From contig NC_135184.1 in assembly GCF_041146795.1 (NCBI RefSeq), positions 8,298,967-8,362,966 on the forward strand: DNA of 64,000 bases, in the 5' to 3' direction. The notes beneath the pieces were generated by a model. That model did not search any database. It was not told the DNA's origin and worked only from the letters and a program-made list of their open reading frames with translations. Below, in pieces: positions 7,863-61,780 of this stretch. The stretch is from Maylandia zebra (lineage: Eukaryota; Chordata; Actinopteri; Cichliformes; Cichlidae). Numbering within the stretch: the first letter of the stretch is position 1; each line of letters opens with the position of its first letter. Made by a program: the position numbers and the translations under genes.

Positions 7863-7992
7863 GTAATTAATAAACATACTGTAATGTAATATGGATCGAT
7901 CTGTCTCTGAAATTTCTTACAAAAAGTATTGTGTAAGGGGACTTTTTATCTTACATTCATAAAGTCCAATCTTTTTCTCTTTTTCAGAAAAG

Positions 7993-10900: not shown

Positions 10901-11256
10901 ATAAGGGCAGCTTGATCCCCATTGAACGAGCCAAGAGCCATTTTCTTTTTGCGGTTGTAGGAGACGACCTCAACTGGGACAGCGAAGCCTACATGGATGA
11001 AATGGTAGTGAGACTTAAGCATCATGGGAAGGAGAACTTTGAGACTGTTTTTTACCCTGGAGCTGGACACATGTTGGAGCCACCTTATGCACCCCACTGC
11101 CCCTCCAGCTTCAATGCAGGTGTAGGCAAACGAGTGCTGTGGGGAGGTGAGCCCAAGGCCCACATAGCAGCTGAGATCCACCTGTGGAAGAAGATCCAGG
11201 ATTTCTTCAAAACTCACCTGAGTTGTGATGCAGCACAGACTAAAGCCAAGTTATAG
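7993..11256 (+). CDS. BAAT/ACOT-family enzyme with Cys nucleophile (bile-acid-CoA:amino acid N-acyltransferase-like)
   Basis: Three coding exons join in frame: 7993-8443, 8815-9002 and 10648-11256, giving 415 residues, the normal family length. All introns have GT-AG borders. A further AG acceptor just before the ATG (7987) points to an upstream 5' UTR exon. Exon 1 encodes the N-terminal beta-sandwich domain (about residues 1-150). Exons 2-3 encode the alpha/beta-hydrolase domain. The nucleophile elbow reads GIMSRCKGANIGL, with Cys where thioesterases have Ser. The Asp is in VVGDDLNWD and the His in YPGAGHMLEPPY. In this family a Cys nucleophile marks the N-acyltransferase (BAAT) type, which conjugates bile or fatty acyl-CoA to glycine or taurine. 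The C-terminus ends AKL, close to a PTS1-like tripeptide (seen), so a peroxisomal location is possible (inferred). No stops or frameshifts are seen. The substrate cannot be told from sequence alone. Confidence 0.92.
8596..8792 (+). mobile_element. LINE ORF fragment in intron 1 of the BAAT-like gene
   Basis: Broken frames read VQNAARPLFERLL-like and HITPILASLHWLPE-like runs, typical of the C-terminal region of L2/Rex LINE ORF2. It is short and decayed, and lies in the same orientation as the host gene. Confidence 0.6.
9003..10647 (+). other. Intron 2 of the BAAT-like gene
   Basis: The intron is bounded by GTGAGT at 9003 and TTTCACAG at 10647. No coding exon, RNA gene or clear repeat family is recognised in its 1.6 kb. 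Confidence 0.8.
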
Positions 11257-21610: not shown

Positions 21611-22099
21611 AGCGGCTCTATGCTCTCCACTTACCCAATTTCACTGTGCAAGAAACTGCACAATGACAATAAAAAGCTCTAAGTCTAAAACAGTTTCCTG
21701 GCCAGTAAAATCGGGCAATTATTCGCTCCAGAGTTTTATGCTATTCCAGGTGACCAGCCATCGACTTGTAATGAGCCAGCTAAAACAATAATTTCTCAGT
21801 GGCTCTTCTGGCACCAACAAGTGGGTGTGTTCTTCCATCGTGCAAGTGTCACGACACACTGAACATGGTCTGAACATGGATTTTCCCTCGATATTTCTTT
21901 TCCACCAGTACTATGGGGTATTTGTGAATATCCATGACTGACCCGGCCAGGTGGCCAGCTGGTCTTTGGACAGGGTCACGGCAGTTTCAAGGTTCAACAA
22001 AATCCCTTTCACTGACAGACTGAAGGAAAGCTCCTCAAAAATAGAGGGTCTTCAAGCTCCTCAGTGGCACGAAAAGGTTTCCCGGACTCAGTGTTGTAT

Positions 22100-22482
22100 A
22101 TTTTTTTCCCAAAAGATTGAAATAGTGGAGAGAAATCAGCTTCTGAAACCATCCAGAAGACAAAGTCTCCAACTGGTTTGTGGAAGTCCAGTTTCTCCAA
22201 ATTAATCAGCGGGTGAAATGTCTCTTCATGGATGGTTTTGATTCTGTTGTTATTCACGAACAAAGCCCTCAAAGCAGCATATGAAAGAAAGTCCTCTTTC
22301 ATTGTTGTCTCCAGCGTGTTAAAAGAGAGATCGAGCTCAGTGATGAGTTTTGAAGCGGCTGCAGGGACTTCTCGAAGGTTTTGGCTCGAACAGTCGAAGG
22401 ATGTTGTTCACAGTGGTGACACTGTTGACTGGTGATTGACAAGCACTGAGATACTAGCATGACAAACACAAGAAACATCATG
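22100..22482 (-). pseudogene. Leucine-rich-repeat receptor fragment (signal peptide, LRRNT, LRRs), frameshifted
   Basis: On the minus strand from 22481 a hydrophobic signal-like MMFLVFVMLVSQCLSI opens. A frame change then gives CSSQNLREVP, a typical LRR N-terminal cap, followed by ITELDLSFN and LRALFVNNNRIKTIHEETF, two leucine-rich repeats of the kind found in Toll-like and related receptors. The reading then drifts and stops at 22009. At least one frameshift separates the signal from the cap, and most repeats and any transmembrane part are missing. I call it a broken gene piece. The parent gene is not certain. Confidence 0.55.
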
Positions 22483-24099: not shown

Positions 24100-25130
24100 G
24101 ACAACCTTAACCTTAACAACCTTTCGCGTGCCACAGCTGGTTGCCGACCCCTGGACTAGACTATTTAACAATATGTTACAGATTTATGTTACAAAGAAGA
24201 AACGCCACAGAGGAGGTTTGTGGATGTAGTGAAGGAGGACATGCAGAGGGTTGGTGTGACAGACGATGCAAACAATTGCCCATTCCCACAAAGCTATGGT
24301 AAAAGCTAGCGTGAGATTGGGCTGGGTTCATTGTACTGCTGTATATGACTAGGTATTTATTTGGGAAAGGAAAAAATGAACTGAAAACAGTTACTTTCTT
24401 ATGAAATGAACAAAAATAAAACCCAATGTTGTAACAATTACTGCATGGTATATAAATTAAGATTTTCAAAATAAAACACCAGGCCTCCTAAGTCCTAACT
24501 CTGGTTTCACTCATAAAACCTTATACCTTTAAAGTGGAATGGCTTTCACCTTTGAAATGCCCCAGGGTACAACTAAAACAGTTATTGTCAACTTAAACCA
24601 CATTTGTACTAGTGGGCCCCCACATAGACACACATTTACTTGTCCATATTAAACCTGAAGCATAGGCCCTTTCTCTTGTTTGTACTTGTGTTCTCGTGTA
24701 CTCGTGATACGTCATCAGTCGGAGACCAAGTACTGTTCCAATTCAAAGTATGCATCAAGCCGAGAACGCGAAAAAGTCCCGGATGTGTTCTCGCTCCGCC
24801 TGTTTTATCGATAAATGAACGTTTTCTTTAAATTATTTGAATATATATGAGTGCCTGTGTATAAATACACAAACAATACACATATGCTTTCAATTGTGTA
24901 ATTTAAGTGATCTAGGTAGCTCTGTTTTGGAAGTTCAGTTAACGCTAGAAATGTGTTTTGGAGTTTCTACGTCCTTTAGAATTTGTACGTGCTTTTTGGA
25001 GTTTGTACGGGCTTTATCTCTAGGGGCCACTGTATATATTTATATATAAACATACATAAATAAAACCACTTCTTTTTTTTTTTACATTAGTAATTCCTTT
25101 TGTGCATAATTTTATATTGTTGTTAATAAT
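24100..25130. other. No gene recognised
   Basis: Short frames only. A few AT-rich and TA-rich tracts occur near 25030-25080. Confidence 0.5.
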
Positions 25131-25199
25131 AAATAGAGAGTTAATCCCATACAGCTTATGACAAAATTTGATCCGAAGTGATTGATGGCCCTAATCACG

Positions 25200-25530
25200 A
25201 CCTTTTGACCTCCCGCCCCTCCCCTCCGTGGGAAACCCCCCGCGTGACGAATCGTATCCGGAGAAGGGGGGGCGAACCCCCCGCGTGACGAATTATATCC
25301 CGAGAAAGGGGGGCGAACCCCGGAAGCGCGCCATCTGTTGCTAACCGTAACGAATTGCACCCCGAGAAAGGAGGGGTGAACCCGGAAGCGCGTCATCTGT
25401 TGTTGGGGAAAAAAAAAGTTTTTAGAGGGAGGGGGAAAACCTCCGGAAGCGCGTCATCTGTTGTTGGGAAAAAAAGTTTTTAGAGGGAGGGGGAAACCTC
25501 CGGAAGCGCGCCATCTGTTGGAGGGGAATA
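25200..25530 (+). repeat. GC-rich tandem repeat with CTCF-like words (left arm)
   Basis: Several imperfect units contain CCGCGTGACGAAT, GAGAAAGGGGGGCGAACCCC and CGGAAGCGCG(C/T)CATCTGTTG. The last word occurs four times (starting near 25326, 25388, 25449 and 25506). Its complement, CCAACAGATGGCGC, agrees with the vertebrate CTCF core consensus at 13 of 14 positions in the best copy. The other copies are weaker. Confidence 0.7.
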
Positions 25531-25579
25531 AAAAAGCAGAGAGAGGAGTCCGTCACAATTTCTAAGGCACAGACACAAG

Positions 25580-25807
25580 ATGGATTTCCTTCTGCAGCCC
25601 CGCAGCGGTCCTGTGTCCGATGAGATCTGCTCTCCCAAAGAAGAAGGTTTTGAATATGACATATTCAAATACAGCATATTTACTATGGAAGGCATCGATC
25701 CGGACCTTATGACCCTACCGGAAATACTCCGGAAGTGTCTAGTCATTTTCAGACCTGTTGCGTCATGTTCCCTAAGCACAGCGGTGATGCAGCAGCTGAT
25801 TCTGTGA
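25580..25807 (+). CDS. Small hypothetical protein, 75 aa (left arm copy)
   Basis: An intronless frame begins MDFLLQPRSG and ends AVMQQLIL. A TATA-like AATAAAAAAG lies about 50 bases upstream, directly after the GC-rich tandem repeat. The right-arm copy (39833-40036) differs by an in-frame 24-base deletion that keeps the frame open. There is no signal peptide, membrane segment or motif I recognise. It is acidic in the middle. It may be a real small gene or chance. The frame-preserving indel and the upstream TATA-like box are the only support. Confidence 0.4.
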   Translation: MDFLLQPRSGPVSDEICSPKEEGFEYDIFKYSIFTMEGIDPDLMTLPEILRKCLVIFRPVASCSLSTAVMQQLIL

Positions 25808-26099
25808 TGTATAGAGAGACAGAGCGGATGTAATTTTACTTTCTTAAGCTGCACCGGCGTTTGTAATGGATGTAGAGATTTCAATAGTAATTTTATTTTC
25901 CTATAATACAGACGCAGTAAAAAAAAACAAAAAAAAAAAAACCTTTAAGATACACCATAGCTTGTGATGAAAAGAAGAACTTTCTATCCGCTTGTAACCT
26001 ACAGGCTGCCTATGTGTAAAAAAACGGATAACTATCCCTTAGTGAATACTACTTTTCCTTTTGAGGGACTGAAAAAACAAACCAGCGACAGGCGATCTT

Positions 26100-26103
<4 letters not shown>

Positions 26104-26163
<60 letters not shown>
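26104..26163 (+). repeat. (CA)n microsatellite
   Basis: About 30 CA units on the plus strand. The mirror tract in the right arm is at about 39435-39519. Confidence 0.95.
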
Positions 26164-26164
<1 letters not shown>

Positions 26165-26554
26165 CGCGGGGCAAGGAGGAGTTTTTTTCTTCATTACTTT
26201 TTACAATAAGTTTTCTCAATAGATAGAAAATGATGACGCTGAGGAGTCAACATCCGATATTATCATTGCTTGTAACCCGGTTTCTTACATCTCCCCATAA
26301 AACAAGTCTTAGCGAGGAAAAAAAGCTCATATTCGAATAAGTTTATTCCCCTCTGTGGGAAAGAGTTTTTTTCTCAGAGTCAACCATGAGGCGGGTTTTG
26401 TCAACAGCAAGAACAAAGCCAGACAACTGTTGCCCATAAGGTAAAACAAATATCCGCCTCTAAGACGTATTTTACCGTTGCAGAATGTGGAAAACAGACA
26501 GCGTTCACAAGAAGGCATTCAAAAAAAAGGAAATTGGATACCCCAACTCTCCCG

Positions 26555-26560
<6 letters not shown>

Positions 26561-26618
<58 letters not shown>
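26561..26618 (+). repeat. (CA)n microsatellite
   Basis: About 29 CA units. The mirror tract in the right arm is 38015-38090. Confidence 0.95.
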
Positions 26619-26620
<2 letters not shown>

Positions 26621-27070
26621 TGCATAGATAAACTCTGAATATAGTAGTGGGACTTCAGCTGTTTATGTAACTTACTATCTTAAGACTTTTGTGTCTACAA
26701 TAATTAGTTTCCTTGGAACCAGATCCCTACCTGTTAATAATTCTCCACTGTACCCATGGTTCAGAAAATTACAGTCAGCCTGCCAGGGACACGTCACTCA
26801 GAGAGCTTTTAGAAACATGAGAGGCATCCATACATTTAGAGCACGGGCCTGTTATCAGAAAAAAGTACAAGCCGGAGTTGAATGGTGTTCAGTTTCACCT
26901 TCCTTCCTGTTGCTCTATGACGTAGTTTGAAACAGAAACCACAAGTGAGTCAGTCTCGGGTCGAGGTTAGGATTTCCAAAATCAGAGTTCATACACATGT
27001 AGCTCTTGATCATATATGTTCATATGTTAACAGTCTTTTTCTTCCCCTTCTTTATTTCTGCGGGAGTCAG

Positions 27071-28361
27071 GTGGCAGGAGCTCTGTGGAGGTATTTCATC
27101 TCCAAAGGCATTGAGTATCTGGACACTGTGTTTTTCATCCTGAGGAAAAAATTTAACCAGGTCACCTTCCTGCACGTCTACCATCATTGCTCCATGTTCA
27201 CGCTCTGGTGGATTGGCATCAAGTGGGTGGCAGGAGGACAGTGTGAGTAGCTTACAACACAGCAGACATCAGCTATATGATATATATATGAATTTATCAG
27301 CATTGCTGTTGATAAAGCCTTCACCGGCTCTGTAGTTTTGTGGTTTATACTGGGTGAGGGCTGGGAAGAGACACAAATGCCTTGATGGATGCTTCAGGAA
27401 GCTAAACCAAACATGTGGAGCTACTTGTCTATAAACCTTTTATTCACTACTGGTTAATGTATTCATTATTGTTGTTTGTTGAGCTTTTTTTTTTTTTTTT
27501 TTAATAATATGCATCTGCATATTAACAGCCATGCTAGCAACTCTGTAAAGGTATACCACAGGCAGAGGAGCACTTTGAGCTAAGTGCTAATGCCAACAAG
27601 GCAACATGTTGAGAGTAATAGCATTTAATCGCTGAAGTTTACTATTGGGTACAATGTTTATCATGTTCACAGTATGTATTTAGCATGATAACACGCTATC
27701 ACTTGCTAATTAGTAAACACAGGTGCAGCTATATGTATATTTGCAAGTAGATGATTGTGACTGAGAGTAAACTGAGTCTGAACACTGATGAGGAAGCTAG
27801 ATGACAAATTTCACTGAAACCCACAAGCATAGTATCGTCATATGTAGCTTGGATAGTTTAATCTGGATTCATGGGCCCCTGGACCTACACTTGTTTGTAT
27901 CTCCCACCCCCCTCAACTATTGTCTTTTTATTGGATACAGACAGCAGGAGTTCAGAGCAACTCAGTTTAAGATTTTTTTTTAACTATAGTAAGCAGAACA
28001 AAATTAAAAACTTATTGTTTCTTCTACTGCAGCATTCTTTGGTGCACATATGAATGCGATGATCCATGTCCTGATGTACCTGTATTACGGTCTTGCCTCC
28101 TGTGGACCTAAGATCCAAAAGTACCTGTGGTGGAAGAAGTATCTGACAATTATCCAGATGGTAGGTTGATTTCCAGGGTGGCTGATTTTGAAATTAAATA
28201 TACTGATTGTAGGGATCATTTGACTGAAAATCGTTCTTCTTGCTATGAAAGAACGGTGAAAACACAATATGGTGCAAAAGCATAACTCTTATTCTCTCTT
28301 TGGGGCTCAGATTCAGTTCCATGTCACCATCGGTCACACGGCCTTGTCTCTCTATCTCTAA
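27071..28361 (+). pseudogene. ELOVL4-like fatty acid elongase, partial (left arm)
   Basis: Three consecutive exons of an elongase of very long chain fatty acids join in frame: 27071-27242, 28033-28160 and 28311-28361. They encode the histidine box in [18 protein letters not shown], then [19 protein letters not shown], then [11 protein letters not shown] and QFHVTIGHTALSLYL. Normal splice borders are kept. A stop at 28359-28361 cuts the protein where the family continues with its last membrane helices, and the 5' exons are not found upstream. It is therefore a gene fragment, not a working membrane enzyme. Its family is clear; ELOVL4 is the closest by memory of the family. Confidence 0.8.
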
Positions 28362-28573
28362 AGACAGAGCACATATCTGAACCACTGGAACACAGAGGTA
28401 AGAGAAATCTGTGGAGATACATGCGAAGGATTAAACTATAAATTAGTTAATATTAGATTATTTCTGCCAAGAAAAATGTTGCCTGAGTTGATGTAGCAGT
28501 AATCTTGTTTGCGTTGGCCATGTTTCTTTTGATTTGTGTTACCTTACCTGCTTTTCTTTCATACTCTCTTTAG

Positions 28574-28712
28574 GTAATAAAGCCACATCTTTACCATGAA
28601 GCTACCTTTGGCTCTGGTGTTTGCACTCACCCTCCCCATCATCAGGGCTCAGGTTCCCCACTGGGGCCCGTGTCCAGAGCCTGCTGTTCAACCCCCCGTC
28701 AGCCTTAAACAG
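28574..28712 (+). pseudogene. Apolipoprotein D-like first coding exon (left arm)
   Basis: The ATG at 28596 starts a signal peptide (MKLPLALVFALTLPIIRA), followed by QVPHWGPCPEPAVQ, matching the mature start of apolipoprotein D (His-x-Gly-x-Cys-Pro). The exon ends AAACAG|GTACC at 28712, and an AG acceptor precedes it at 28573. No lipocalin exons follow within the arm, so it is an orphan first exon. Teleosts, cichlids notably, carry clusters of apoD genes. This may be a leftover of such a cluster. Confidence 0.6.
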
Positions 28713-28799
28713 GTACCAGTGACGATGCAGACTGTGCAGAATATGCTGAACACATTAGGCGTGAATGTCATGAGATACTTCTTCTCTCGCACAGTTTGA

Positions 28800-31190
28800 A
28801 AAGGAAAAAGCTGACACCACAAACATTATCAGAGATTTCTGTTAAACGAGAATTTATTAATATAAATATTGTTTTCATGTGAAAAAATAATTTAATTTAT
28901 TAAAAGTACTTTTTATTTATATAGTTTATAATATATTATTTTTTTTTTCAGCATTTCAGCATAATCTTTGTTGTAAGTCAACTCAGTACCCAAAGTATTG
29001 TGTAAGTAAAGCTTTTCAGTACCTTTAATAGCATAGAAATGTGCATACATTAGTACAATAACTGAATAAATGAAGACAGACTTTTTCCCAGAGGGGAAAC
29101 TTGGCAAAACATTGTGTTTAATTACTTCCTCAGCTGGTGTAGAGTAGGTTTTTATAAAACACATACCATATATCAGAGTATGTAGATTTATTCATAGTCT
29201 GCCGACCCCCTCTTCTTCTTCTCTGTGTTGGTGTTGTTGTTCGTGTGCGTGTGTGTGCGTGTGTGTGTGCGTGCCTTAGAAGTCAATTAATACATTAGCC
29301 ATACTTAAAAAACATCTGAATTTCATTTAGAACTGAGATTCTAAGTTGTAAGCAGAAATCTTATGCACAGCCAGAAACATGTTTCCCCACTTTCACAATG
29401 CTGAGGTGTCAAATCCACAACCCCCAACAAATGGTTTGTTACACGCGGGTGTGAAGGGCAAGCTTTACTTACACAGCCTCACACACAGTAGATTTTTAAA
29501 GTTTTTTGGGTACAGGGGTTTAGCCACAGATGCAACATCCACTTTTGATAAAGATCCCTCCACCTGTTTATTTCTTAAGAAATTAAGCATCTTTTATTAA
29601 GCTCTTATTTATAATTGTCTACACAATAATAGACACCGTGTGCTCTGTGACATTATAGTCTTCTACTGCTGCTTCCATCGGTTTGCATTTTAAACTCCCA
29701 GCCTTTCAGTTTGTTATGAACGACTTTATATCACAAAATGTTAGAAATATAAAGTGATCCATGCGACTTTTTTATTTTTTTTATTTTATTTATTTTTTTA
29801 TTTTCTGTTTGATGGAAGGACTTAAGACACGAGTTATTTAAACAATTCTAAATGACAGTGTGATGGCCATAGCACTTTATGCGGGTCAAATGTGTTAAGG
29901 ATAATGTTTATCAATGTAAAATTGCAAAGAACTTGTGGATAGATTATAACATTTTGTAAACAGTTACCTCAGAAGCTGTACTGGTAGATCTATGTATGTA
30001 AGGTAAAACTATCCACAGTACTTCCACTTAAGTAGCTAAACACATAAAGTCACCCTTACCAATAATCCGCTGCTCCTTGAAAAAGTAGCGCAAACAGACA
30101 ACTGACTGAGCAATGATAAGTAGAGCTACCCGAGGCCGAGACTCAAGCAGAAGAAATTAAAAGTTGTTGTTTTTGTGGCTCGAAAAATTAAAGAAAGTAT
30201 GTTTAATAATTCAACAAGACCCGCACCTTCAACACATGTACATTCAAATTTTGGAACAGGCTCAACATTGCTGCTGTTCAATAGTTTTTATCCGTTTGAA
30301 AAAGTCATTTTACGGCTTTAATGTTTCCAGCTGATAAGGAGAATGAGTGCGTTTCAAATGTGCGTCCAAAGGCTTTAAACATCTGCTTTGTCTGTAACGA
30401 CAGTATCAAACTACAGAGCATTGTTTTTACTAAAATTCAACATTTTCCGATGAAAATTTGGCTACTTTTTTTTTTTTTTTTCTTTACTGTAACACGCACC
30501 TCAATGCCATTTTTAGGATATTCTTGGTGATCACATTTTTTCATATTCATGCTTTTGGCACTGAGGGTATCTAATACGCATGTTGTCGCTGTGTTTGTAC
30601 TACCAGCTGTGAGGGCTCTGCTTTTGCTTTGAGCAGTCTGTTTTTATTTTGTCTCGTGAGTGTGTGTGTGTTTTTCAAACGAGATCCTCGTCAGTTTGAT
30701 TTTGTTACCACAAACTTTGTGTGAAGTTCACAACAGAGGTAAAGAGATTTAAACACCCCAGTTTAAGGAGGCAGGCAGGGGTTGGACCACCTGCACAGGG
30801 CTGGTGAAGCAGAGAGTGTCGGGGGGAGATGTGCAACAGAAGCAGAGGGAACATTTTACAAGATGATAAATGGCTGATTTAGATGATTAAGGATTTGTCG
30901 ACAAGATTAAAAGACACGTCCGTCAGAGTTCAACAACATTACAGTTTGATTAAATAAAAAAGTTTTTAAACTACACAAGGTTCATTTTCTCCTCTGATAG
31001 TAATCATATTAAACATGTCAAGAAAGAAAGAGTATAAAGAAAATAGTAAATGTGTGTCTAATTAAACTCTTCCTGTGAGCCTTATATCATCCTTTAAAAT
31101 ATGTTTGGTGTTACAAACTTGAAGAAGCACGGAAAAGATCATCAGACATTAATCTAATCAGTTTTCAGCCTTCATTCATATTGAAAAGTT
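28800..31190 (+). other. Left-arm sequence without recognised gene
   Basis: AT-rich sequence with a GT-rich patch at 29225-29275. Only short frames are present, and the same frames recur mirrored in the right arm. No gene is supported. Confidence 0.5.
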
Positions 31191-31198
31191 GAAATCTT

Positions 31199-31565
31199 CC
31201 CTGCTAGACCCAAGTGCAGCGTTTAACACCGTCGGCCAGAACATTTTATTACAGCTATTATTAAATGGAGAGTCCTCTTCACACACTGAGGTTAATTATG
31301 AAGCTCCACAGGCTTCTGTGCAAAGACCAGATTTGTTTACATTATACGTGCTTTAGAAGACATAGCATACATTTTCACTGCTATGCATAAGATACCCGCT
31401 TTTATTGGTTAAACTGCCGGGATGTCTTAGACACATAATGAGCTTTAATTTTCTGCTTCTAAGTTCAGATAGAACTGAGGTTATTGTAACGGGGCGTAAA
31501 AATCTTAGAAACACTGTGGCTAACACGATCCTTACTCTGGATGGCATCGCCTTGAGCCGCCTGTT
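31199..31565 (+). mobile_element. LINE reverse transcriptase fragment (left arm)
   Basis: The forward frame reads DPSAAFNTVGQNILLQLL and later RNTVANTILTLDGIAL. These are reverse-transcriptase and C-terminal words of L2/Rex-type LINEs (the LDxSAAFDTVDH block). A stop at about 31355 and gaps show it is dead. The mirror copy is 33067-33433 on the minus strand. Confidence 0.65.
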
Positions 31566-31694
31566 GTAGTGATTTGGCACATTATAAGTAAAATTGAAAC
31601 ATACAATCCCATAGCACAACATCAACATTTATTTATATACAAAAATAAAAATGCTTTTTCAGAAAAGAATTGTAACTTCACAATTCATCACCGA

Positions 31695-32147
31695 TTATGT
31701 GGTTACATAGGGTAAGTCCTCATCATTATCCCATAGCTGTTCCGGTAATCTCTCAGGGCCTTGGAAGGGTGGCCATGTCCAGTCTACCTCATCAATGTCG
31801 GGAGAGTCGCCGAAATACAAAAAATCTTCCTCGTTGTCAATGTCCATCGTCCACAGCTGTGGTGGTGAGGGGGGTGTGCTCCACTCTGACACTTCACTCC
31901 AATCTTCAAATGTAGGGTTCGTGGCTGGATCTTCAGAGACTAAAGATTGCTCAGTATCCCTGGTACCAAGTACCAAATATGTACCAAGTTCTGTCACTCT
32001 GATGGTTGATTGAGCAGAAGGGCTGGAAGATGCCATTTTCATGGAGAATTTCAAGCCCAACAGATGGGAATTACCGTTCTTTTCCAAAGTTACAGCTGCT
32101 AGAGACGCAGTGGCCGACTCTTCGGTTTTTGAAAATAGCTGCCACAC
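31695..32147 (-). CDS. Hypothetical acidic protein, 150 aa, in palindrome loop
   Basis: A single-exon frame runs leftward from an ATG at 32147 and ends just inside the left arm. The N-terminal third is basic to neutral. The C-terminal half is strongly acidic and rich in Trp and Pro (for example FEDWSEVSEW, DIDNEEDFLYFGDS, DIDEVDWTWPPF). That composition resembles acidic activation domains, which is only a composition argument. There is no membrane segment or catalytic motif. It is divergent to the 184-aa ORF, with 121 bases between start codons. Chance is possible, but 150 codons without stop in unbiased sequence is notable. Confidence 0.45.
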   Translation of the reverse strand: MWQLFSKTEESATASLAAVTLEKNGNSHLLGLKFSMKMASSSPSAQSTIRVTELGTYLVLGTRDTEQSLVSEDPATNPTFEDWSEVSEWSTPPSPPQLWTMDIDNEEDFLYFGDSPDIDEVDWTWPPFQGPERLPEQLWDNDEDLPYVTT

Positions 32148-32268
32148 CTACCCGCACCCTTTAAGATCAACCCACTTCCAGACCACGCCCTCTTCTGTTA
32201 TTTAAAAAGAAGACCGCCGTCTCATTCCTTCAAACCTTTTTTTTTTTAGCTCAAAAACAGAGAGAAGT
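32148..32268. promoter_or_regulatory. Candidate bidirectional promoter
   Basis: This 121-base gap lies between the two divergent start codons. It holds a TATA-like TTATTTAAAAAG at 32199-32210, which on the other strand reads CTTTTTAAATAA and so could serve both directions. A CCACGCCC box is at about 32183-32190. It is about 59 bases before the plus-strand ATG and 52 before the minus-strand ATG. Confidence 0.4.
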
Positions 32269-32823
32269 ATGGCCTCTACAGCCCTGCGCCACCCTGCGGA
32301 GGAGGAGGAAAGTTCTGCGGACGAGGGGACAATATTACCTGACACGTCCGGTTACTATCGCCCCTTGGAAAAGCAGCAGCAAGAGGACGAGCTTGACGGT
32401 TGGGCATCTTCTTTGTTCATCGATACCGTGAAAACCGCGGTGTATCATCTTGTCAACCTCGTAATCAACAAGTACCTCACTGACACATGCAACGATTGTA
32501 TGGCCGATCAACCCCTCCAGAAACAGCATGAGTGTTTGCGAGTGTTGGAGGATGACTTTTACGCTGAAAATTATTACAGCATCAGAAAAAGACTCCTCAC
32601 CCCTCGTTTCATTCCATCCATTCAACGGCTGCTGATTGCTCGCCACATCAAAATGGACGACGTCAAAGTCTGCATGGTGGCGGAAACTCTCTTGCGCGAA
32701 CTGAAATCGGAAAGGAAAGTCTTTGACGCCATAGCCGAGGCATACCACAATCTGGTAGGGTTGGACATGGTGAAAATCAGACAGCTACGGTTGGTCGCAG
32801 AGTTTTACAAAGGAGGCTGCTAA
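32269..32823 (+). CDS. Hypothetical protein, 184 aa, in palindrome loop
   Basis: An intronless frame with ATG at 32269 and stop at 32821-32823. The N-terminus is acidic (EEEESSADEG). The middle is helical, with a small Cys/His cluster (CNDC, then about ten residues later KQHECL). It is followed by RLLTPRFIPSIQRLLIA and a charged helical C-terminus. I do not recognise the family. The Cys-x2-Cys ... His-x-Cys spacing could bind zinc. The TATA-like upstream box, absence of introns and tight divergent partner resemble compact viral or transposon genes more than fish host genes. That is inference from layout. The centre of the palindrome (about 32316) falls inside this ORF. Confidence 0.55.
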   Translation: MASTALRHPAEEEESSADEGTILPDTSGYYRPLEKQQQEDELDGWASSLFIDTVKTAVYHLVNLVINKYLTDTCNDCMADQPLQKQHECLRVLEDDFYAENYYSIRKRLLTPRFIPSIQRLLIARHIKMDDVKVCMVAETLLRELKSERKVFDAIAEAYHNLVGLDMVKIRQLRLVAEFYKGGC

Positions 32824-33066
32824 TTTTTTCTCTGAAAGACTGATTTTTTCATTCTTAGAACGTGTAACCAGCATTTTACCAAACAATGTATTCTACATAT
32901 AGTGCATTTAAAAAAAAAAAAAAAATGTACCCACATAATCGGTGATGAATTGTGAAGTTACAATTCTTTTCTGAAAAAGCATTTTTATTTTTGTATATAA
33001 ATAAATGTTGATGTTGTGCTATGGGATTGTATGTTTCAATTTTACTTATAATGTGCCAAATCACTA

Positions 33067-33433
33067 CAACAGGCGGCTCAAGGCGATGCCATCCAGAGTA
33101 AGGATCGTGTTAGCCACAGTGTTTCTAAGATTTTTACGCCCCGTTACAATAACCTCAGTTCTATCTGAACTTAGAAGCAGAAAATTAAAGCTCATTATGT
33201 GTCTAAGACATCCCGGCAGTTTAACCAATAAAAGCGGGTATCTTATGCATAGCAGTGAAAATGTATGCTATGTCTTCTAAAGCACGTATAATGTAAACAA
33301 ATCTGGTCTTTGCACAGAAGCCTGTGGAGCTTCATAATTAACCTCAGTGTGTGAAGAGGACTCTCCATTTAATAATAGCTGTAATAAAATGTTCTGGCCG
33401 ACGGTGTTAAACGCTGCACTTGGGTCTAGCAGG
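33067..33433 (-). mobile_element. LINE reverse transcriptase fragment (right arm)
   Basis: Mirror copy of 31199-31565 with the same stop and the same words on the minus strand. Confidence 0.65.
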
Positions 33434-35919
33434 GAAGATTTCAACTTTTCAATATGAATGAAGGCTGAAAACTGATTAGATTAATGTCTGATGATCTTTT
33501 CCGTGCTTCTTCAAGTTTGTAACACCAAACATATTTTAAAGGATGATATAAGGCTCACAGGAAGAGTTTAATTAGACACACATTTACTATTTTCTTTATA
33601 CTCTTTCTTTCTTGACATGTTTAATATGATTACTATCAGAGGAGAAAATGAACCTTGTGTAGTTTAAAAACTTTTTTATTTAATCAAACTGTAATGTTGT
33701 TGAACTCTGACGGACGTGTCTTTTAATCTTGTCGACAAATCCTTAATCATCTAAATCAGCCATTTATCATCTTGTAAAATGTTCCCTCTGCTTCTGTTGC
33801 ACATCTCCCCCCGACACTCTCTGCTTCACCAGCCCTGTGCAGCTGGTTCAACCCCTGCCTGCCTCCTTAAACTGGGGTGTTTAAATCTCTTTACCTCTGT
33901 TGTGAACTTCACACAAAGTTTGTGGTAACAAAATCAAACTGACGAGGATCTCGTTTGAAAAACACACACACACTCACGAGACAAAATAAAAACAGACTGC
34001 TCAAAGCAAAAGCAGAGCCCTCACAGCTGGTAGTACAAACACAGCGACAACATGCGTATTAGATACCCTCAGTGCCAAAAGCATGAATATGAAAAAATGT
34101 GATCACCAAGAATATCCTAAAAATGGCATTGAGGTGCGTGTTACAGTAAAGAAAAAAAAAAAAAAAGTAGCCAAATTTTCATCGGAAAATGTTGAATTTT
34201 AGTAAAAACAATGCTCTGTAGTTTGATACTGTCGTTACAGACAAAGCAGATGTTTAAAGCCTTTGGACGCACATTTGAAACGCACTCATTCTCCTTATCA
34301 GCTGGAAACATTAAAGCCGTAAAATGACTTTTTCAAACGGATAAAAACTATTGAACAGCAGCAATGTTGAGCCTGTTCCAAAATTTGAATGTACATGTGT
34401 TGAAGGTGCGGGTCTTGTTGAATTATTAAACATACTTTCTTTAATTTTTCGAGCCACAAAAACAACAACTTTTAATTTCTTCTGCTTGAGTCTCGGCCTC
34501 GGGTAGCTCTACTTATCATTGCTCAGTCAGTTGTCTGTTTGCGCTACTTTTTCAAGGAGCAGCGGATTATTGGTAAGGGTGACTTTATGTGTTTAGCTAC
34601 TTAAGTGGAAGTACTGTGGATAGTTTTACCTTACATACATAGATCTACCAGTACAGCTTCTGAGGTAACTGTTTACAAAATGTTATAATCTATCCACAAG
34701 TTCTTTGCAATTTTACATTGATAAACATTATCCTTAACACATTTGACCCGCATAAAGTGCTATGGCCATCACACTGTCATTTAGAATTGTTTAAATAACT
34801 CGTGTCTTAAGTCCTTCCATCAAACAGAAAATAAAAAAATAAATAAAATAAAAAAAATAAAAAAGTCGCATGGATCACTTTATATTTCTAACATTTTGTG
34901 ATATAAAGTCGTTCATAACAAACTGAAAGGCTGGGAGTTTAAAATGCAAACCGATGGAAGCAGCAGTAGAAGACTATAATGTCACAGAGCACACGGTGTC
35001 TATTATTGTGTAGACAATTATAAATAAGAGCTTAATAAAAGATGCTTAATTTCTTAAGAAATAAACAGGTGGAGGGATCTTTATCAAAAGTGGATGTTGC
35101 ATCTGTGGCTAAACCCCTGTACCCAAAAAACTTTAAAAATCTACTGTGTGTGAGGCTGTGTAAGTAAAGCTTGCCCTTCACACCCGCGTGTAACAAACCA
35201 TTTGTTGGGGGTTGTGGATTTGACACCTCAGCATTGTGAAAGTGGGGAAACATGTTTCTGGCTGTGCATAAGATTTCTGCTTACAACTTAGAATCTCAGT
35301 TCTAAATGAAATTCAGATGTTTTTTAAGTATGGCTAATGTATTAATTGACTTCTAAGGCACGCACACACACACGCACACACACGCACACGAACAACAACA
35401 CCAACACAGAGAAGAAGAAGAGGGGGTCGGCAGACTATGAATAAATCTACATACTCTGATATATGGTATGTGTTTTATAAAAACCTACTCTACACCAGCT
35501 GAGGAAGTAATTAAACACAATGTTTTGCCAAGTTTCCCCTCTGGGAAAAAGTCTGTCTTCATTTATTCAGTTATTGTACTAATGTATGCACATTTCTATG
35601 CTATTAAAGGTACTGAAAAGCTTTACTTACACAATACTTTGGGTACTGAGTTGACTTACAACAAAGATTATGCTGAAATGCTGAAAAAAAAAATAATATA
35701 TTATAAACTATATAAATAAAAAGTACTTTTAATAAATTAAATTATTTTTTCACATGAAAACAATATTTATATTAATAAATTCTCGTTTAACAGAAATCTC
35801 TGATAATGTTTGTGGTGTCAGCTTTTTCCTTTTCAAACTGTGCGAGAGAAGAAGTATCTCATGACATTCACGCCTAATGTGTTCAGCATATTCTGCACAG
35901 TCTGCATCGTCACTGGTAC

Positions 35920-36058
35920 CTGTTTAAGGCTGACGGGGGGTTGAACAGCAGGCTCTGGACACGGGCCCCAGTGGGGAACCTGAGCCCTGATGATGGGGAG
36001 GGTGAGTGCAAACACCAGAGCCAAAGGTAGCTTCATGGTAAAGATGTGGCTTTATTAC
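35920..36058 (-). pseudogene. Apolipoprotein D-like first coding exon (right arm)
   Basis: Mirror of 28574-28712. The ATG is at 36036 on the minus strand, the signal peptide is identical and the donor site is the same. No lipocalin exons follow. Confidence 0.6.
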
Positions 36059-36270
36059 CTAAAGAGAGTATGAAAGAAAAGCAGGTAAGGTAACACAAAT
36101 CAAAAGAAACATGGCCAACGCAAACAAGATTACTGCTACATCAACTCAGGCAACATTTTTCTTGGCAGAAATAATCTAATATTAACTAATTTATAGTTTA
36201 ATCCTTCGCATGTATCTCCACAGATTTCTCTTACCTCTGTGTTCCAGTGGTTCAGATATGTGCTCTGTCT

Positions 36271-37561
36271 TTAGAGATAGAGAGACAAGGCCGTGTGACC
36301 GATGGTGACATGGAACTGAATCTGAGCCCCAAAGAGAGAATAAGAGTTATGCTTTTGCACCATATTGTGTTTTCACCGTTCTTTCATAGCAAGAAGAACG
36401 ATTTTCAGTCAAATGATCCCTACAATCAGTATATTTAATTTCAAAATCAGCCACCCTGGAAATCAACCTACCATCTGGATAATTGTCAGATACTTCTTCC
36501 ACCACAGGTACTTTTGGATCTTAGGTCCACAGGAGGCAAGACCGTAATACAGGTACATCAGGACATGGATCATCGCATTCATATGTGCACCAAAGAATGC
36601 TGCAGTAGAAGAAACAATAAGTTTTTAATTTTGTTCTGCTTACTATAGTTAAAAAAAAATCTTAAACTGAGTTGCTCTGAACTCCTGCTGTCTGTATCCA
36701 ATAAAAAGACAATAGTTGAGGGGGGTGGGAGATACAAACAAGTGTAGGTCCAGGGGCCCATGAATCCAGATTAAACTATCCAAGCTACATATGACGATAC
36801 TATGCTTGTGGGTTTCAGTGAAATTTGTCATCTAGCTTCCTCATCAGTGTTCAGACTCAGTTTACTCTCAGTCACAATCATCTACTTGCAAATATACATA
36901 TAGCTGCACCTGTGTTTACTAATTAGCAAGTGATAGCGTGTTATCATGCTAAATACATACTGTGAACATGATAAACATTGTACCCAATAGTAAACTTCAG
37001 CGATTAAATGCTATTACTCTCAACATGTTGCCTTGTTGGCATTAGCACTTAGCTCAAAGTGCTCCTCTGCCTGTGGTATACCTTTACAGAGTTGCTAGCA
37101 TGGCTGTTAATATGCAGATGCATATTATTAAAAAAAAAAAAAAATAAGCTCAACAAACAACAATAATGAATACATTAACCAGTAGTGAATAAAAGGTTTA
37201 TAGACAAGTAGCTCCACATGTTTGGTTTAGCTTCCTGAAGCATCCATCAAGGCATTTGTGTCTCTTCCCAGCCCTCACCCAGTATAAACCACAAAACTAC
37301 AGAGCCAGTGAAGGCTTTATCAACAGCAATGCTGATAAATTCATATATATATCATATAGCTGATGTCTGCTGTGTTGTAAGCTACTCACACTGTCCTCCT
37401 GCCACCCACTTGATGCCAATCCACCAGAGCGTGAACATGGAGCAATGATGGTAGACGTGCAGGAAGGTGACCTGGTTAAATTTTTTCCTCAGGATGAAAA
37501 ACACAGTGTCCAGATACTCAATGCCTTTGGAGATGAAATACCTCCACAGAGCTCCTGCCAC
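36271..37561 (-). pseudogene. ELOVL4-like fatty acid elongase, partial (right arm)
   Basis: Mirror of the left-arm fragment, with exons 37561-37390, 36599-36472 and 36321-36271 on the minus strand. The histidine box exon, splice borders and premature stop are the same. Because the stop is shared, the gene was already broken before the arms were duplicated, or the arms have since been homogenised. Confidence 0.8.
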
Positions 37562-38011
37562 CTGACTCCCGCAGAAATAAAGAAGGGGAAGAAAAAGACT
37601 GTTAACATATGAACATATATGATCAAGAGCTACATGTGTGTGAACTCTGATTTTGGAAATCCTAACCTCGACCCGAGACTGACTCACTTGTGGTTTCTGT
37701 TTCAAACTACGTCATAGAGCAACAGGAAGGAAGGTGAAACTGAACACCATTCAACTCCGGCTTGTACTTTTTTCTGATAACAGGCCCGTGCTCTAAATGT
37801 ATGGATGCCTCTCATGTTTCTAAAAGCTCTCTGAGTGACGTGTCCCTGGCAGGCTGACTGTAATTTTCTGAACCATGGGTACAGTGGAGAATTATTAACA
37901 GGTAGGGATCTGGTTCCAAGGAAACTAATTATTGTAGACACAAAAGTCTTAAGATAGTAAGTTACATAAACAGCTGAAGTCCCACTACTATATTCAGAGT
38001 TTATCTATGCA

Positions 38012-38014
<3 letters not shown>

Positions 38015-38090
<76 letters not shown>
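38015..38090 (+). repeat. (GT)n microsatellite
   Basis: About 38 GT units, the first of four long tracts in this arm. Confidence 0.95.
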
Positions 38091-38092
<2 letters not shown>

Positions 38093-38485
38093 AGTCGGGA
38101 GAGTTGGGGTATCCAATTTCCTTTTTTTTGAATGCCTTCTTGTGAACGCTGTCTGTTTTCCACATTCTGCAACGGTAAAATACGACTTAGAGGCGGATAT
38201 TTGTTTTACCTTATGGGCAACAGTTGTCTGGCTTTGTTCTTGCTGTTGACAAAACCCGCCTCATGGTTGACTCTGAGAAAAAAACTCTTTCCCACAGAGG
38301 GGAATAAACTTATTCGAATATGAGCTTTTTTTCCTCGCTAAGACTAGTTTTATGGGGAGATGTAAGAAACCGGGTTACAAGCAATGATAATATCGGATGT
38401 TGACTCCTCAGCGTCATCATTTTCTATCTATTGAGAAAACTTATTGTAAAAAGTAATGAAGAAAAAAACTCCTCCTTGCCCCGCG

Positions 38486-38562
<77 letters not shown>

Positions 38563-39028
38563 CCTTCTTGCGAACGCCGTCTGTTTTCTGCAACGGTAAA
38601 ATACGACTTTGAGACGGATATTTGTTTTACCAAATGGACAATTGCTGTTGACAAAACTCGGCTCATGGTTGACTCTTTCCCACAGAGGGGGGTGCTTTAA
38701 TAAACTTATTCGAATATGAGCTTTTTTCCCCGCTAAGACTTGTTTTATGGGGAGATGTAAAAAACCGGGTTACAAGCAATGATAATATCGGATGTTGACT
38801 CCTCAGCGGATCAACATTTTCTATCTATTGAGAAAACTTATTGTTAAAGTATTGAAGAAAAAACTCTCTACTTTGGTCTGACAAGGAGCAGGTTGCGCAA
38901 AACCTACCTCATATAGATGTTTTAATAATAATAATATTTTTTGGAGGGCGTGTTATAGGATATAAGCATTGAGAAAAAAAAAACTGATATCTGCTGTCTC
39001 ACTCCTCCTTGGCCCGCGGGGTGGGGGT

Positions 39029-39111
<83 letters not shown>

Positions 39112-39430
39112 CCTTCTTGCGAACGCCGTCTGTTTTCTGCAACGGTAAAATACGGCTTTGAGACGGATATTTGTTTTGCCAAATGGACAATTGCTGTTGA
39201 CAAAACTCTCCTCATGGTTGACTCTTTCCCACAGAGGGGGGTGCTTTAATAAACTTATTCGAATATGAGTTTTTTTTCCTCGCTAAGACTTGTTTTATGG
39301 GGAGATGTAAGAAACCGGGTTACAAGCAATGATAATATCGGATGTTGACTCCTCAGCGTCATCATTTTCTATCTATTGAGAAAACTTATTGTAAAAAGTA
39401 ATGAAGAAAAAAACTCCTCCTTGCCCCGCG

Positions 39431-39434
<4 letters not shown>
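38091..39434 (-). repeat. Tandem triplication of microsatellite-linked unit (right arm only)
   Basis: Three copies of a roughly 400-470 base unit (38091-38487, 38569-39030, 39110-39434) are separated by (GT)n tracts. Each contains GCAACGGTAAAATACG(A/G)CTT, TTATTCGAATATGAG and GATAATATCGGATGTTGACT. The middle copy has an extra piece at about 38865-39000. The left arm has a single copy at 26163-26560. Confidence 0.9.
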
Positions 39435-39523
<89 letters not shown>

Positions 39524-39832
39524 AAGATCGCCTGTCGCTGGTTTGTTTTTTCAGTCTCTCAAAAGGAAAAGTAGTATTCACTAAGGGATAGTTATCCGTT
39601 TTTTTACACATAGGCAGCCTGTAGGTTACAAGCGGATAGAAAGTTCTTCTTTTCATCACAAGCTATGGTGTATCTTAAAGGTTTTTTTTTGTTTGTTTTT
39701 TTTTACTGCGTCTGTATTATAGGAAAATAAAATTACTATTGAAATCTCTACAGGAAGTCACTCTTTATTTCCATTACAAACGCCGGTGCAGCTTAAGAAA
39801 GTAAAATTACATCCGCTCTGTCTCTCTATACA

Positions 39833-40036
39833 TCACAGAATCAGCTGCTGCATCACCGCTGTGCTTAGGGAACATGACGCAACAGGTCTGAAAATGACTA
39901 GACACTTCCGGAGTATTTCCGGTAGGGTCATAAGGTCCGGATCGAGATTGAATATGTCATATTCAAAACCTTCTTCTTTGGGAGAGCAGATCTCATCGGA
40001 CACAGGAACGCTGCGGGGCTGCAGAAGGAAATCCAT
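39833..40036 (-). CDS. Small hypothetical protein, 67 aa (right arm copy)
   Basis: Mirror of 25580-25807 with the same start and end, but eight residues shorter (24 bases deleted, including the KYSIFTME part). The frame stays open. The TATA-like box and GC-rich repeat lie upstream on the minus strand as in the left arm. Confidence 0.4.
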   Translation of the reverse strand: MDFLLQPRSVPVSDEICSPKEEGFEYDIFNLDPDLMTLPEILRKCLVIFRPVASCSLSTAVMQQLIL

Positions 40037-40089
40037 CTTGTGTCTGTGCCTTAGAAATTGTGACGGACTCCTCTCTCTGCTTTTTTATT

Positions 40090-40410
40090 CCCCTCCAACA
40101 GATGGCGCGCTTCCGGAGGTTTCCCCCTCCCTCTAAAAAACGTTTTTTCCCAACAACAGATGACGCGCTTCCGGAGGTTTCCCCCCTCCCTCTAAAAACT
40201 TTTTTTTTCCCCAACAACAGATGACGCGCTTCCGGGTTCACCCCTCCTTTTTCAGGATGCAATTCGACACGGTTAGCAACAGATGGCGCGCTTCCGGGGT
40301 TCGCCCCCCTTTCTCAGGATATAATTCGTCACGCGGGGGGTTCGCCCCCCCTTCTCCGGATACGATTCGTCACGCGGGGGGTTTCCCACGGAGGGGAGGG
40401 GCGGGAGGTC
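40090..40410 (-). repeat. GC-rich tandem repeat with CTCF-like words (right arm)
   Basis: Mirror of 25200-25530. CAACAGATG(G/A)CGCGC occurs near 40096, 40154, 40215 and 40277 on the plus strand, so the words point outward from the palindrome on both sides. Confidence 0.7.
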
Positions 40411-40509
40411 AAAAGGTCGTGATTAGGGCCATCAATCACTTCGGATCAAATTTTGTCATAAGCTGTATGGGATTAACTCTCTATAAATTAATTAAAGCAA
40501 CAAAACAAC

Positions 40510-41846: not shown

Positions 41847-44261
41847 TTATAAATTGGCTTTAGCCTGTGCAGCATCACAACTCAGGTGAGTTCTAAAGAA
41901 CTCCTCTATCTTCTTCCACAGGTGGATCTCTGCTGCTGCGTGGGCCCTGGGCTCCCCTCCCCACACCACTGAGAAGCTAAGGATCCCATGGAAAGCAGAG
42001 GAACAGAAGGGTCCATAGGGTGGCTCCAGCAAATGTCCAGCTCCAGGATAAAAAACAGTCTCAAAGTTCTCCTTCCCATGACGCTTCAGTCTCTCCACCA
42101 TCTGGTCCATGTAGGCCTTGCTGTCCCAGTTGAGGTCATCCTCTGCAGCCACAAAGAGAAACTGGCTCTTGGCTCGTTCAATGGGGACGAGGCTTCCTTT
42201 GTTCTTCTCTTCCAGGGGATCTTCAGTAGCATACTTGGTAAGGTTTGCTCCAGACTTGGTGGTAATCACCTTGCTGAAGTCAAACATTAAGGGTGAGAGG
42301 ATCTGCTGTTTCTTGTAGTAGAGGGGAGTGCCCACACTGGCACTGGTGCCATTGATCCAAACTAAGGCCTCCACACCGGGCACGAATGCAGCAAGAGAGA
42401 GCGCGATATCTGTTCCCTTTGATCTTGATATTATGCCGACTCCTTTACTGCCCGCCTGTGAAATAACACACAGAGCTCAGAAACCGGCAATTCCAAAGTA
42501 TTAAAAGTTGTGACCTGCTGGGCATTTAAACTGGAACAGTTTAAAGAAAAAAATGGGTGTTCTGGCACATAACTCGTAACTACACATAACTAGGACTCCC
42601 TAAAGCAGTGTCTCACTTTTTGCCAAGCAATTCTTCAAACCTGACTGATTTTTAACCAGTTCACTGCATTTCACAGACTACGCATGCAATCATTCCCCCC
42701 CCCCAAAAAAAAAACAAAAACATTTGCTTCACATTCGGTCTGAACACACAGTTACATGGGTTCTTGTAAAGTTACGCTGCTAGCTTAAGTGTCACCCACT
42801 GGACCCACCTTGGGGTGGTGGCGTAAGAAATCCACGGCTTCTTTAAAGGGGTCCAGATGTATCTCTTTCATATTTTGTCTGTCACTGAACACAGCAATCG
42901 TGAGGACCAGAAACCCTTTGTTGGCCAACAAACAGGCTCTTTTCTCAGACATGAAGGTGCCCAGATCCAGCACAGCAGGGAACGGACCTTCTCCTAGAAC
43001 ACAGACAACAAAAGTTTCATGTAAGTAGGTTATAATCATGCATAATGTGCAACTTTAACCTAAAGCCCTACAATAAAAGATCCATATTCAACACTTCATC
43101 TATGTTTTCCAGTTTAAATATGAATTAAAATGTTTTTCACTCATGTATCGTGATTTTGGTGTAAGTTTCATCATATAGTTTCATTACAGCCCAATTAGTG
43201 CTGTATTTTATGATCTCAGAGGTGTTAAACACATTTTTTTTATATTTAAGGATACTTTTAAATAACTTCCCAAAGTAGTACAATAAGTACTTCTACAAAG
43301 GATACAGCTGTGCAAATATGATTACAGCTAATCTGACAAGCCACCCCCTCCTCTGTCCTCCAGATGCATTTTAGGAACTGAGACATCTTTTAAGACATCT
43401 GTTATTAATCTCTGTCTCTCTTCCACAACATGTCTTCTATCCTGTCTTCCTTCTCTCACCCCAGATGGCCCCGCCCCTCCCTGAGCCTGGTTCTGCGGGA
43501 GGTTTCTTCCTGTTAAAAGGCAGTTTTTCCTTCCCACTGTCGCCAAAGTTCTTGCTCATAGGGGGTCATTTGATTGTTGGGTTATTCTTTGTATGTATTA
43601 TTGTAGGGTCTGCCTTACAATATAAATACTTTGAGGCGACTGTTGTTGTGATTTGGCGCTATATAAATAAAATTGAATTGAAATTGAATCAAGAAAAGTG
43701 ATGTACCCTTTGCAGAAAATATACCTTCGCCACCTGTTAAAAAAAAAAAGGGGGCCCACTGTAATGATAGTGAATACTTCTAAGTGGAAAACCACATACA
43801 GTACCTGGGGGTGTAAACAAGACTCCTCGTATGTTCCCCTCTTTGACTGGGTCCCGACTGACCCCGTCTCCCATCAAAAACCTCTCGTTTGTCTCTTCTG
43901 CCAGTATCCTGCCATCCGCCTCCTGCTCATGCACAGAAAACTTCACCACGTGAGGGTTCAGAGCTTTGTTCTTGAAGAAGTACTTGTGCAAAGTGTCTGC
44001 CTTCAGTGACTGCAGCAGACCCATGGGCTGCACTCCAACGTAGCTCCCGTTGAGTGAGGGGTCTCGGTTCAGGTCGACCTCTCCGCCATCATCTGCCCTG
44101 TAAGTGGCTGAAGAGCTGAACACCACTTCTCTCTCGTCGGTCGATGTGGCTCTGATTGTGACCACCTGCCTTGACCGCAGCCCGGCCACTTTCAGCTGAA
44201 CGGGCTCATCAAACAGACACCTGGTGCTCGGCAGCAGCCTCAGCCTGACTTGGGAGGACAT
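41847..44261 (-). CDS. BAAT/ACOT-family enzyme with Ser nucleophile (acyl-CoA thioesterase-like)
   Basis: Three minus-strand exons, 44261-43805, 42993-42809 and 42455-41847, join in frame to 416 residues with GT-AG borders. The structure equals that of the gene at 7993, and the last exon has the same 609 bases. The N-terminal domain starts MSSQVRLRLLPSTRCLFDEP. The nucleophile elbow reads GIISRSKGTDIAL, with Ser in the place where the other gene has Cys. The Asp is in AAEDDLNWD and the His in YPGAGHLLEPPYG. In this family Ser is typical of acyl-CoA thioesterases, which hydrolyse acyl-CoA to free acid and CoA, whereas Cys marks the N-acyltransferase. It ends AKANL, not a PTS1-like tripeptide as seen. 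An AG acceptor lies just before the ATG, so a 5' UTR exon is expected upstream. No disabling change is seen. Confidence 0.92.
43440..43690 (+). mobile_element. Rex1-like LINE 3' end in an intron of the thioesterase-like gene
   Basis: GTTCTGCGGGAGGTTTCTTC, TTCCCACTGTCGCCAAAG and a TTTGGCGCTATATAAATAAA end with (GAATT)n-type tail are the common 3' end of a fish Rex1/Babar-type LINE. It sits in intron 1, antisense to the gene. Confidence 0.7.
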
Positions 44262-56438: not shown

Positions 56439-56554
56439 GCGAAAATTTGCATTTAAAATATTGGTGTTGATGATGGTGTTAATCCAGAGGACAGTGTTTC
56501 AAATGTGGCTGGTAAGCCTTCCATCATTAAAAGGTCAACTAGTGGTAAAATAAG
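56439..56554 (+). pseudogene. Gag-like remnant edge, copy 2
   Basis: Matches 2749-2864 and ends exactly at GGTAAAATAAG, the same base at which the copy at 61551-61780 ends. The sequence after it is shared with 61781 onward but not with 2865 onward. Confidence 0.8.
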
Positions 56555-61550: not shown

Positions 61551-61780
61551 CTTTGATCTGTGTGTTACCAGATGATGAAAATGAAAAGCATGAAACATGG
61601 TTTAAAGCAAAAACAATGTGTTATGATGAGTTTATTTATGAAGTGAGTGAATGGTTATCTGGTTGCGAACATTTGCATTTAAAATATTGGTGTTGATGAT
61701 GGTGTTAATCCAGAGGACAGTGTTTCAAATGTGGCTGGTAAGCCTTCCATCATTAAAAGGTCAACTAGTGGTAAAATAAG
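61551..61780 (+). pseudogene. Gag-like remnant edge, copy 3
   Basis: Matches 2635-2864, longer at its left side than copy 2, and ends at the same GGTAAAATAAG joint. Confidence 0.8.

Follow-up and report, generated by a model that had tools for sequence, protein, structure and literature searches.

According to PMC8097293, vertebrate Mavericks (Polintons; adintoviruses) have 5'-(AG)3//(CT)3-3' among their end motifs, another being (AGT)2//(ACT)2, and are flanked by perfect 6-bp target-site duplications (TSDs). Intact ones are reported there to be 12,723–24,620 bp long, with terminal inverted repeats of 46–1,447 bp. Here, a palindrome in the genome of the cichlid Maylandia zebra is described, which is very probably a mobile element derived from Mavericks. 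It occupies positions 25135–40482 (15,348 bp) of a stretch of 64,000 nucleotides (assembly GCF_041146795.1, contig NC_135184.1, positions 8,298,967–8,362,966 of the forward strand), hereafter called the window. The element shows both the conserved terminal motif, (AG)3//(CT)3, and the 6-bp TSD of Mavericks/Polintons, and its 15.3 kb fall within their 12.7–24.6 kb. It differs from the intact Mavericks of that source in its terminal repeats, which are 6.6–7.6 kb long, in having no recognised core gene, and in the broken host exons inside its arms.

Self-comparison of the window reveals two near-identical arms, 25135–31708 (6.6 kb) and 32925–40482 (7.6 kb), inverted around a single-copy loop of 1,216 bp. 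Almost the entire element is terminal inverted repeat. An earlier note on the window had described such a palindrome with a unique loop at 25131–40487; the structure is as it said, and its coordinates exceeded the element by a few bases at either end, the excess lying in the TSD. The arm identity that it proposed to measure varies along the arms. Over 5,090 aligned bases the inner arms show 6 substitutions and 1 indel (0.12%). An intermediate portion of 396 bases has 2 substitutions (0.5%), whereas 13 substitutions and 3 indels (1.4%) are seen in the outermost portion of 945 aligned bases. The difference between outer and inner divergence is significant with the counts of the first alignment (12/969 vs 6/5091, Fisher test, p = 1.9e-6). 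In length, the right arm exceeds the left one by about 1 kb, mainly through GT-microsatellite-linked units repeated at 38547–39519. The parts of the element are as follows.

25129–25134, no strand: TSD, left copy, ATAAAT, adjoining the element end.
25135–26617, plus strand: left terminal zone with the AGAGAG end, GC-rich subterminal tandem repeats (25234–25536), a short open reading frame (ORF) and CA microsatellites; CpG-rich.
25580–25807, plus strand: the short ORF in the terminal repeat, starting MDFLLQPRS; its right-arm copy differs through indels, and it has no family match.
26618–31708, plus strand: inner left arm, 0.12% different from the right arm.
31709–32924, no strand: single-copy loop, by self-comparison.
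32925–38014, minus strand: inner right arm, inverted counterpart of the inner left arm.
38015–40482, minus strand: right terminal zone, an inverted copy of the left zone with the additional microsatellite-linked units at 38547–39519 and the CTCTCT end.
40483–40488, no strand: TSD, right copy, ATAAAT, adjoining the element end.

Arm homology stops at AGAGAG (25135) and CTCTCT (40482), and the two termini are identical for 166 bp inward. The perfect 6-bp direct repeat ATAAAT lies directly outside both ends, at zero offset. The chance that identical 6-mers are drawn at random from both flanks is 4e-4 for this one site. An interspersed repeat (GTGGCCCCTAGAGA... and GTACAAACTCC units) is present at 24953–25035, just outside the element, and by eye the same repeat is seen at both outer edges of the copy on contig C1.

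The genome searched is a 962-Mb assembly of 63 contigs, labelled C; the window corresponds to C18:8298967–8362966. The loop region has at least 89 matches in the genome, pieces counted (40 of 929 candidates scored). Ten other loci were examined by fetched pieces: C3:59.30 Mb, C2:29.78, C1:36.20, C2:26.07–26.08, C13:6.59, C17:0.11, C17:9.66, C15:28.76, C38 and C25. Palindromic arms are present at the first six of them. The complete layout, including the ELOVL exon pieces described below, is seen in C18, C3 and C2:29.78, where the C3 copy is without about the last 112 bp of the right terminus. The layouts of C13, C2:26 and C17:0.11 differ from that of the window. The C13 copy carries the terminal repeat and the loop genes inside its arms, with arm sequence in the centre, and C2:26.07–26.08 Mb is a double palindrome with arms of about 5.7 kb (99.6% identical), a centre of 225 bp and its own loop genes in each arm. 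On the 4.3-Mb contig C25, an arm segment occurs at least 13 times between 0.49 and 3.0 Mb, at spacings of tens to hundreds of kb; eleven of these copies cover about 31000–31684 and two are shorter.

In a genome-wide search, a 27-base terminal pattern with up to 2 mismatches allowed is matched at 73 sites, 38 of them forward and 35 reverse; the reversed control is matched at none. The termini form 29 convergent pairs, 3.0–23.4 kb apart (18 of them within 11–17.5 kb), leaving 15 sites unpaired. An exact 6-bp TSD at zero offset is present in 25 of the 29 pairs, that is, in 22 of the 26 in a batch test plus C2:29.77, C13 and the window. Of the remaining pairs among the 26, one has a TSD shifted by 2 bases and three have none. 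The C14 pairs at 9.38, 9.74 and 9.77 Mb have common flanks and look like one insertion that was duplicated; the TSD-bearing pairs thus represent at most 23 distinct insertions. C14:9.38–9.77 Mb contains four convergent pairs in all, 9.0–9.6 kb, with common flank sequence. The pair at 9.571 Mb lacks a TSD and carries one and the same flank, in inverted orientation, on either side, which suggests recombination between duplicated copies.

The loop contains two divergent ORFs.

32269–32823, plus strand: ORF A, 184 aa; open in 9/9 full-length copies, with a homologue near a protease ORF at C5:6.25 Mb.
31695–32036, minus strand: ORF B, 113 aa, acidic; its final codons lie inside the arm.

ORF A has a base periodicity of the coding type (G+C 0.56/0.34/0.61 by codon position), and frames of at least 205 codons appear in 6 of 1,000 shuffles of the loop region. 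Among its nine full-length copies (the window and 8 fetched ones, two of which are the two arms of one locus), the length changes are only 3 and 6 bp. C13 additionally carries a partial copy (335/555 bases). The nonsynonymous/synonymous ratio is 0.09–0.80 in 31 of the 34 defined pairs, two changeless pairs being undefined. ORF B is open in C3 and C2:29.78. In C1 it has insertions/deletions and is still open across the aligned part, and in C2:26 and C13 only its first 36 codons can be aligned. The observed/expected CpG ratio is higher in the outer terminal zone (0.93) and ORF A (0.90) than in ORF B (0.44), the inner arm (0.41) and the flanks (0.40–0.43); the value of the loop is attained by 2 of 103 flank windows and that of the terminal zone by 2 of 145.

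ORF A has no significant match in Pfam, PHROGs, NCBIfam or PDB sequences, and ORF B has none in PHROGs or NCBIfam. Searches of viral_contigs with both gave no relative, and the terminal-repeat pattern gave one 19-mer match there. A scan of the window against Rfam gave no match. The ORF A homologue at C5:6.25 Mb has 83% amino-acid identity. At a distance of about 2 kb there is an ORF with a match to Peptidase_C5, the adenovirus endoprotease (E 2.2e-6, 27.9 bits, Pfam cut-off 21.3). An adenovirus-type protease is a core gene of Mavericks, and ORF A is an accessory gene common to the element and to a locus with a Maverick-type protease ORF. Of the 9 other ORFs of C5 and C22 that were scanned alongside the protease ORF, none reached a Pfam cut-off.

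The equivalents of the inner arms (26618–31610) were aligned for the copies C18, C3 and C2:29.78. The left and right arms within a copy differ by 0.10%, 0.22% and 0.12%, respectively, and inner arms of different copies by 0.54–1.39%. Arms are thus more alike within a locus than between loci in the three copies compared, the pattern of concerted evolution, which indicates that they have been homogenised or regenerated inside each copy. Among 83 gap-free two-state sites, 64 have a state common to both arms of a copy or copy pair (42, 15 and 7). At 16 sites the state is confined to a single arm, a pair of adjacent sites links the right arms of C18 and C3, and 1 site is mixed. A full split between left and right arms, expected had the arms merely diverged since the origin of the palindrome, is seen at 0 of the 83 sites. 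In C2 the differences lie in clusters, perhaps a trace of exchange with other members of the family. Both arm/loop junctions are identical in C18, C3 and C2:29.78, and in C1 by BLAST coordinates, which indicates that the palindrome predates the split of these copies. In several other copies only the junction on the ORF A side is matched. The terminal repeats within a copy differ by 0.6% in C2, 0.2% in C13 and 1.4% in C18. Since the right terminal repeat of C18 and the left one of C3 differ by a similar 1.5%, the outer ends of the window copy either are less homogenised or have been exchanged.

The arms are mosaic; the pieces recognised in them are as follows.

27068–27241, plus strand: ELOVL (GNS1/SUR4) exon piece (Pfam 6.2e-19; PDB 6y7f, an ELOVL7 structure, 3.1e-17), with an inverted copy in the right arm.
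28026–28163, plus strand: next ELOVL exon piece (Pfam 2.3e-13), the reading frame breaking shortly after, in the following piece.
28596–28715, plus strand: first exon that we take to be apolipoprotein-D-like, recognised by eye from its translation; no Pfam or PDB match.
31153–31603, plus strand: degraded piece like a long interspersed nuclear element (LINE), with a reverse-transcriptase-like translation by eye; no Pfam support.

That both arms hold the same broken gene pieces, as the earlier note observed, is borne out by the ELOVL pieces. Judged from the sequence, their ELOVL identity is secure. Intron-like DNA separates them, which points to capture at the DNA level. The tail of the LINE-like piece shows 85% identity over 47 bp to a repeat outside the element (43631–43677). 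The arm from about 29203–29224 to 31610 recurs at the majority of the ten other loci; parts of this sequence are also found at the Maverick-type locus of C5 and at C22. The portion of about 26618–29203, with the ELOVL pieces and the apolipoprotein-D-like exon, is found in three of the copies examined. An origin of the entire inner arm from host DNA was considered and narrowed, since the rest recurs widely. We argue from this distribution that about 26618–29203 alone may be a branch-specific host gain.

Because no core gene is recognised in it, the element is classified as a non-autonomous derivative and not as an intact Maverick. Our preferred reading, which we hold to be likely, is a non-autonomous palindromic derivative of the Maverick (Polinton/adintovirus) type, whose palindrome originated in a single fold-back joining and which is mobilised whole and maintains the likeness of its arms. 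Mavericks are believed to replicate as linear genomes with protein priming; we know of no case in which this has been directly watched in vertebrates. A broken linear molecule of this type (terminal repeat, arm, ORF B/ORF A) would fold back on itself, a short match within the 3' end of ORF B serving to prime synthesis. TACAT is present on both sides of the junction, immediately preceded by a T/G mismatch in C18 and C3 and by none in C2:29.78. Self-copying up to its own terminus would then leave ORF A and ORF B as the loop. Such a single fold-back is a reasonably probable origin of the palindrome. Replicase and integrase could be supplied in trans by full Mavericks recognising the common ends; this helper dependence is suggested by the ends and TSDs in common. 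A single strand might fold into a hairpin of about 7 kb, and each round of protein-primed replication would pair and homogenise the arms. Homogenisation linked to replication rather than to the chromosome is a tentative proposal, falling somewhat short of probable. One branch, with three copies found, would have acquired the host ELOVL exons.

Several observations weigh against this reading. No Maverick core gene (protein-primed polymerase, integrase, ATPase, capsid or protease) is recognised in the element of the window. A Pfam scan at 0.01 of 57 of its ORFs, from the left arm and the loop and 50 aa or longer, gave matches for only two, both to ELO; capsid-type genes may have no model there. 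The C5 locus has only one recognised core gene and is absent from the paired termini at the pattern threshold used. The fold-back primer is only 5 nt, with a neighbouring mismatch in two copies. Divergence is about 10 times higher in the outer terminal repeats (1.4%) than in the inner arms, a contrast not predicted by a single fold-back alone. At four of the ten other loci, C17:9.66 (one piece with 5,000 N), C15:28.76, C38 and C25, the same comparison finds no palindromic arms. The CpG ratio of ORF B is host-like. The nonsynonymous/synonymous ratio of ORF A is 1.02, 1.02 and 1.20 in 3 of the 34 defined pairs, each of which includes C17:9.66. No recognised fold is shown by an AlphaFold model of ORF A built from the single sequence; its mean predicted local distance difference test score of 47.6 makes it too poor for use.

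The alternative that survives best accepts the same mobile element and ascribes the likeness of its arms to chromosomal gene conversion after insertion, as in the palindromes of primate Y chromosomes. It predicts the pattern within and between copies equally well, and the 16 sites private to one arm are as expected of new, unconverted mutations. On its own it leaves the origin of the palindrome unexplained, and C18, unlike C2 and C13, has outer ends that are less homogenised than its middle. We regard it as a serious candidate, with a chance slightly below even, and weigh it the same as homogenisation linked to replication. The earlier note had offered recent duplication or gene conversion; a recent duplication at this locus is contradicted by the junctions common to C3, C2:29.78 and C1, and the comparison of copies agrees with arms that are kept alike. 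A related possibility is that palindromes formed independently in several copies, the likeness within a copy reflecting recent duplication. This would yield low divergence within copies, and the divergent layouts of C13, C2:26 and C17:0.11 indicate that rearrangement recurs in the family. For C18, C3 and C2:29.78 it is refuted by both junctions and the loop in common, and the two sites linking the right arms of C18 and C3 also speak against it. Overall, we consider it improbable.

The earlier note had called such structures usual in ampliconic or gene-converting regions. An ampliconic palindrome would be an immobile part of the local chromosome, free of any insertion signature. Large near-identical arms fit such a structure, and BAAT/acyl-CoA thioesterase genes at 7953–11255 (plus strand) and 41848–44298 (minus strand) form an older inverted pair on the flanks. 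The exact TSD, with its low probability of coincidence, the Maverick ends and the dispersed copies at many sites with their own TSDs make this frame very improbable. The flanking pair, 78–81% identical, is centred near 26.1–26.6 kb and is not concentric with the element; an origin of the palindrome from this BAAT/ACOT pair was rejected for its different centre and this identity. Long inverted repeats are troublesome for assemblers, but an assembly or hairpin-read artefact, which the earlier note had already argued against in the form of a simple read-through, is practically negligible, as is chance, given the unique loop, the arm differences with units repeated in one arm only, the Maverick-type ends with their TSD, and the palindromic copies on other contigs.

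Some other systems resemble the element in part. SYREC, the symmetric recombinant adenovirus genome, is an encapsidated laboratory variant with viral termini at both ends of a palindrome that contains cellular DNA, and its linear genome is protein-primed. Unlike SYREC, the element is integrated in an animal genome assembly, in multiple copies and with TSDs. Non-autonomous DNA transposons of the Foldback and miniature inverted-repeat types also carry little besides inverted repeats and are mobilised in trans; the element differs in its 15 kb, its Maverick ends and the accessory gene of conserved frame in the loop. The arms of primate Y palindromes likewise stay similar over time, whereas the element is mobile and occupies many loci with TSDs. 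A literature search by title or the start of the abstract, with partial coverage, found no description of palindromic or non-autonomous Polintons, which leaves their absence from print unproven.

The rest of the window contains further repeats and ORFs. A direct repeat of 992 bp (99.5%) is found at 729–1720 and 55448–56438, and a second repeat pair (96%) at 56437–57313 and 61663–62554; both are young nested repeats. Tandem arrays of the 25-bp TGTCCCTGGGACAT type accompany the nested repeats at 57132–57402 and 62373–62576. A 295-aa ORF at 62711–63598 (plus strand) has a ZSWIM-type RNaseH-like match (1.4e-8) and a weak match to Mutator-like elements, and is perhaps transposon-derived. A leucine-rich-repeat ORF at 22012–22407 (minus strand; LRR_8, 1.2e-7) is perhaps a piece of a Toll-like receptor, although this is a guess.

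It can be speculated that the element is a Maverick satellite: a linear genome that is transmissible and folds on itself, with ORF A (and B) as kept cargo, arms rewritten from each other at each replication, and captured host DNA filling it to about Maverick length, perhaps packaged in helper capsids. This is doubtful at present; if true, the element would correspond, in the germline, to the defective symmetric genomes of adenoviruses. Fold-back replication products that the integrase still accepts would have left a natural record in palindromic derivatives with paired TSDs. Comparison of arms within and between copies makes the distinction between rewriting at replication and rewriting in the chromosome testable. 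Before a large near-identical palindrome in an animal assembly is called ampliconic, it should be examined for Maverick ends. Capture of host genes at the DNA level by Maverick-type elements would bear on gene transfer.

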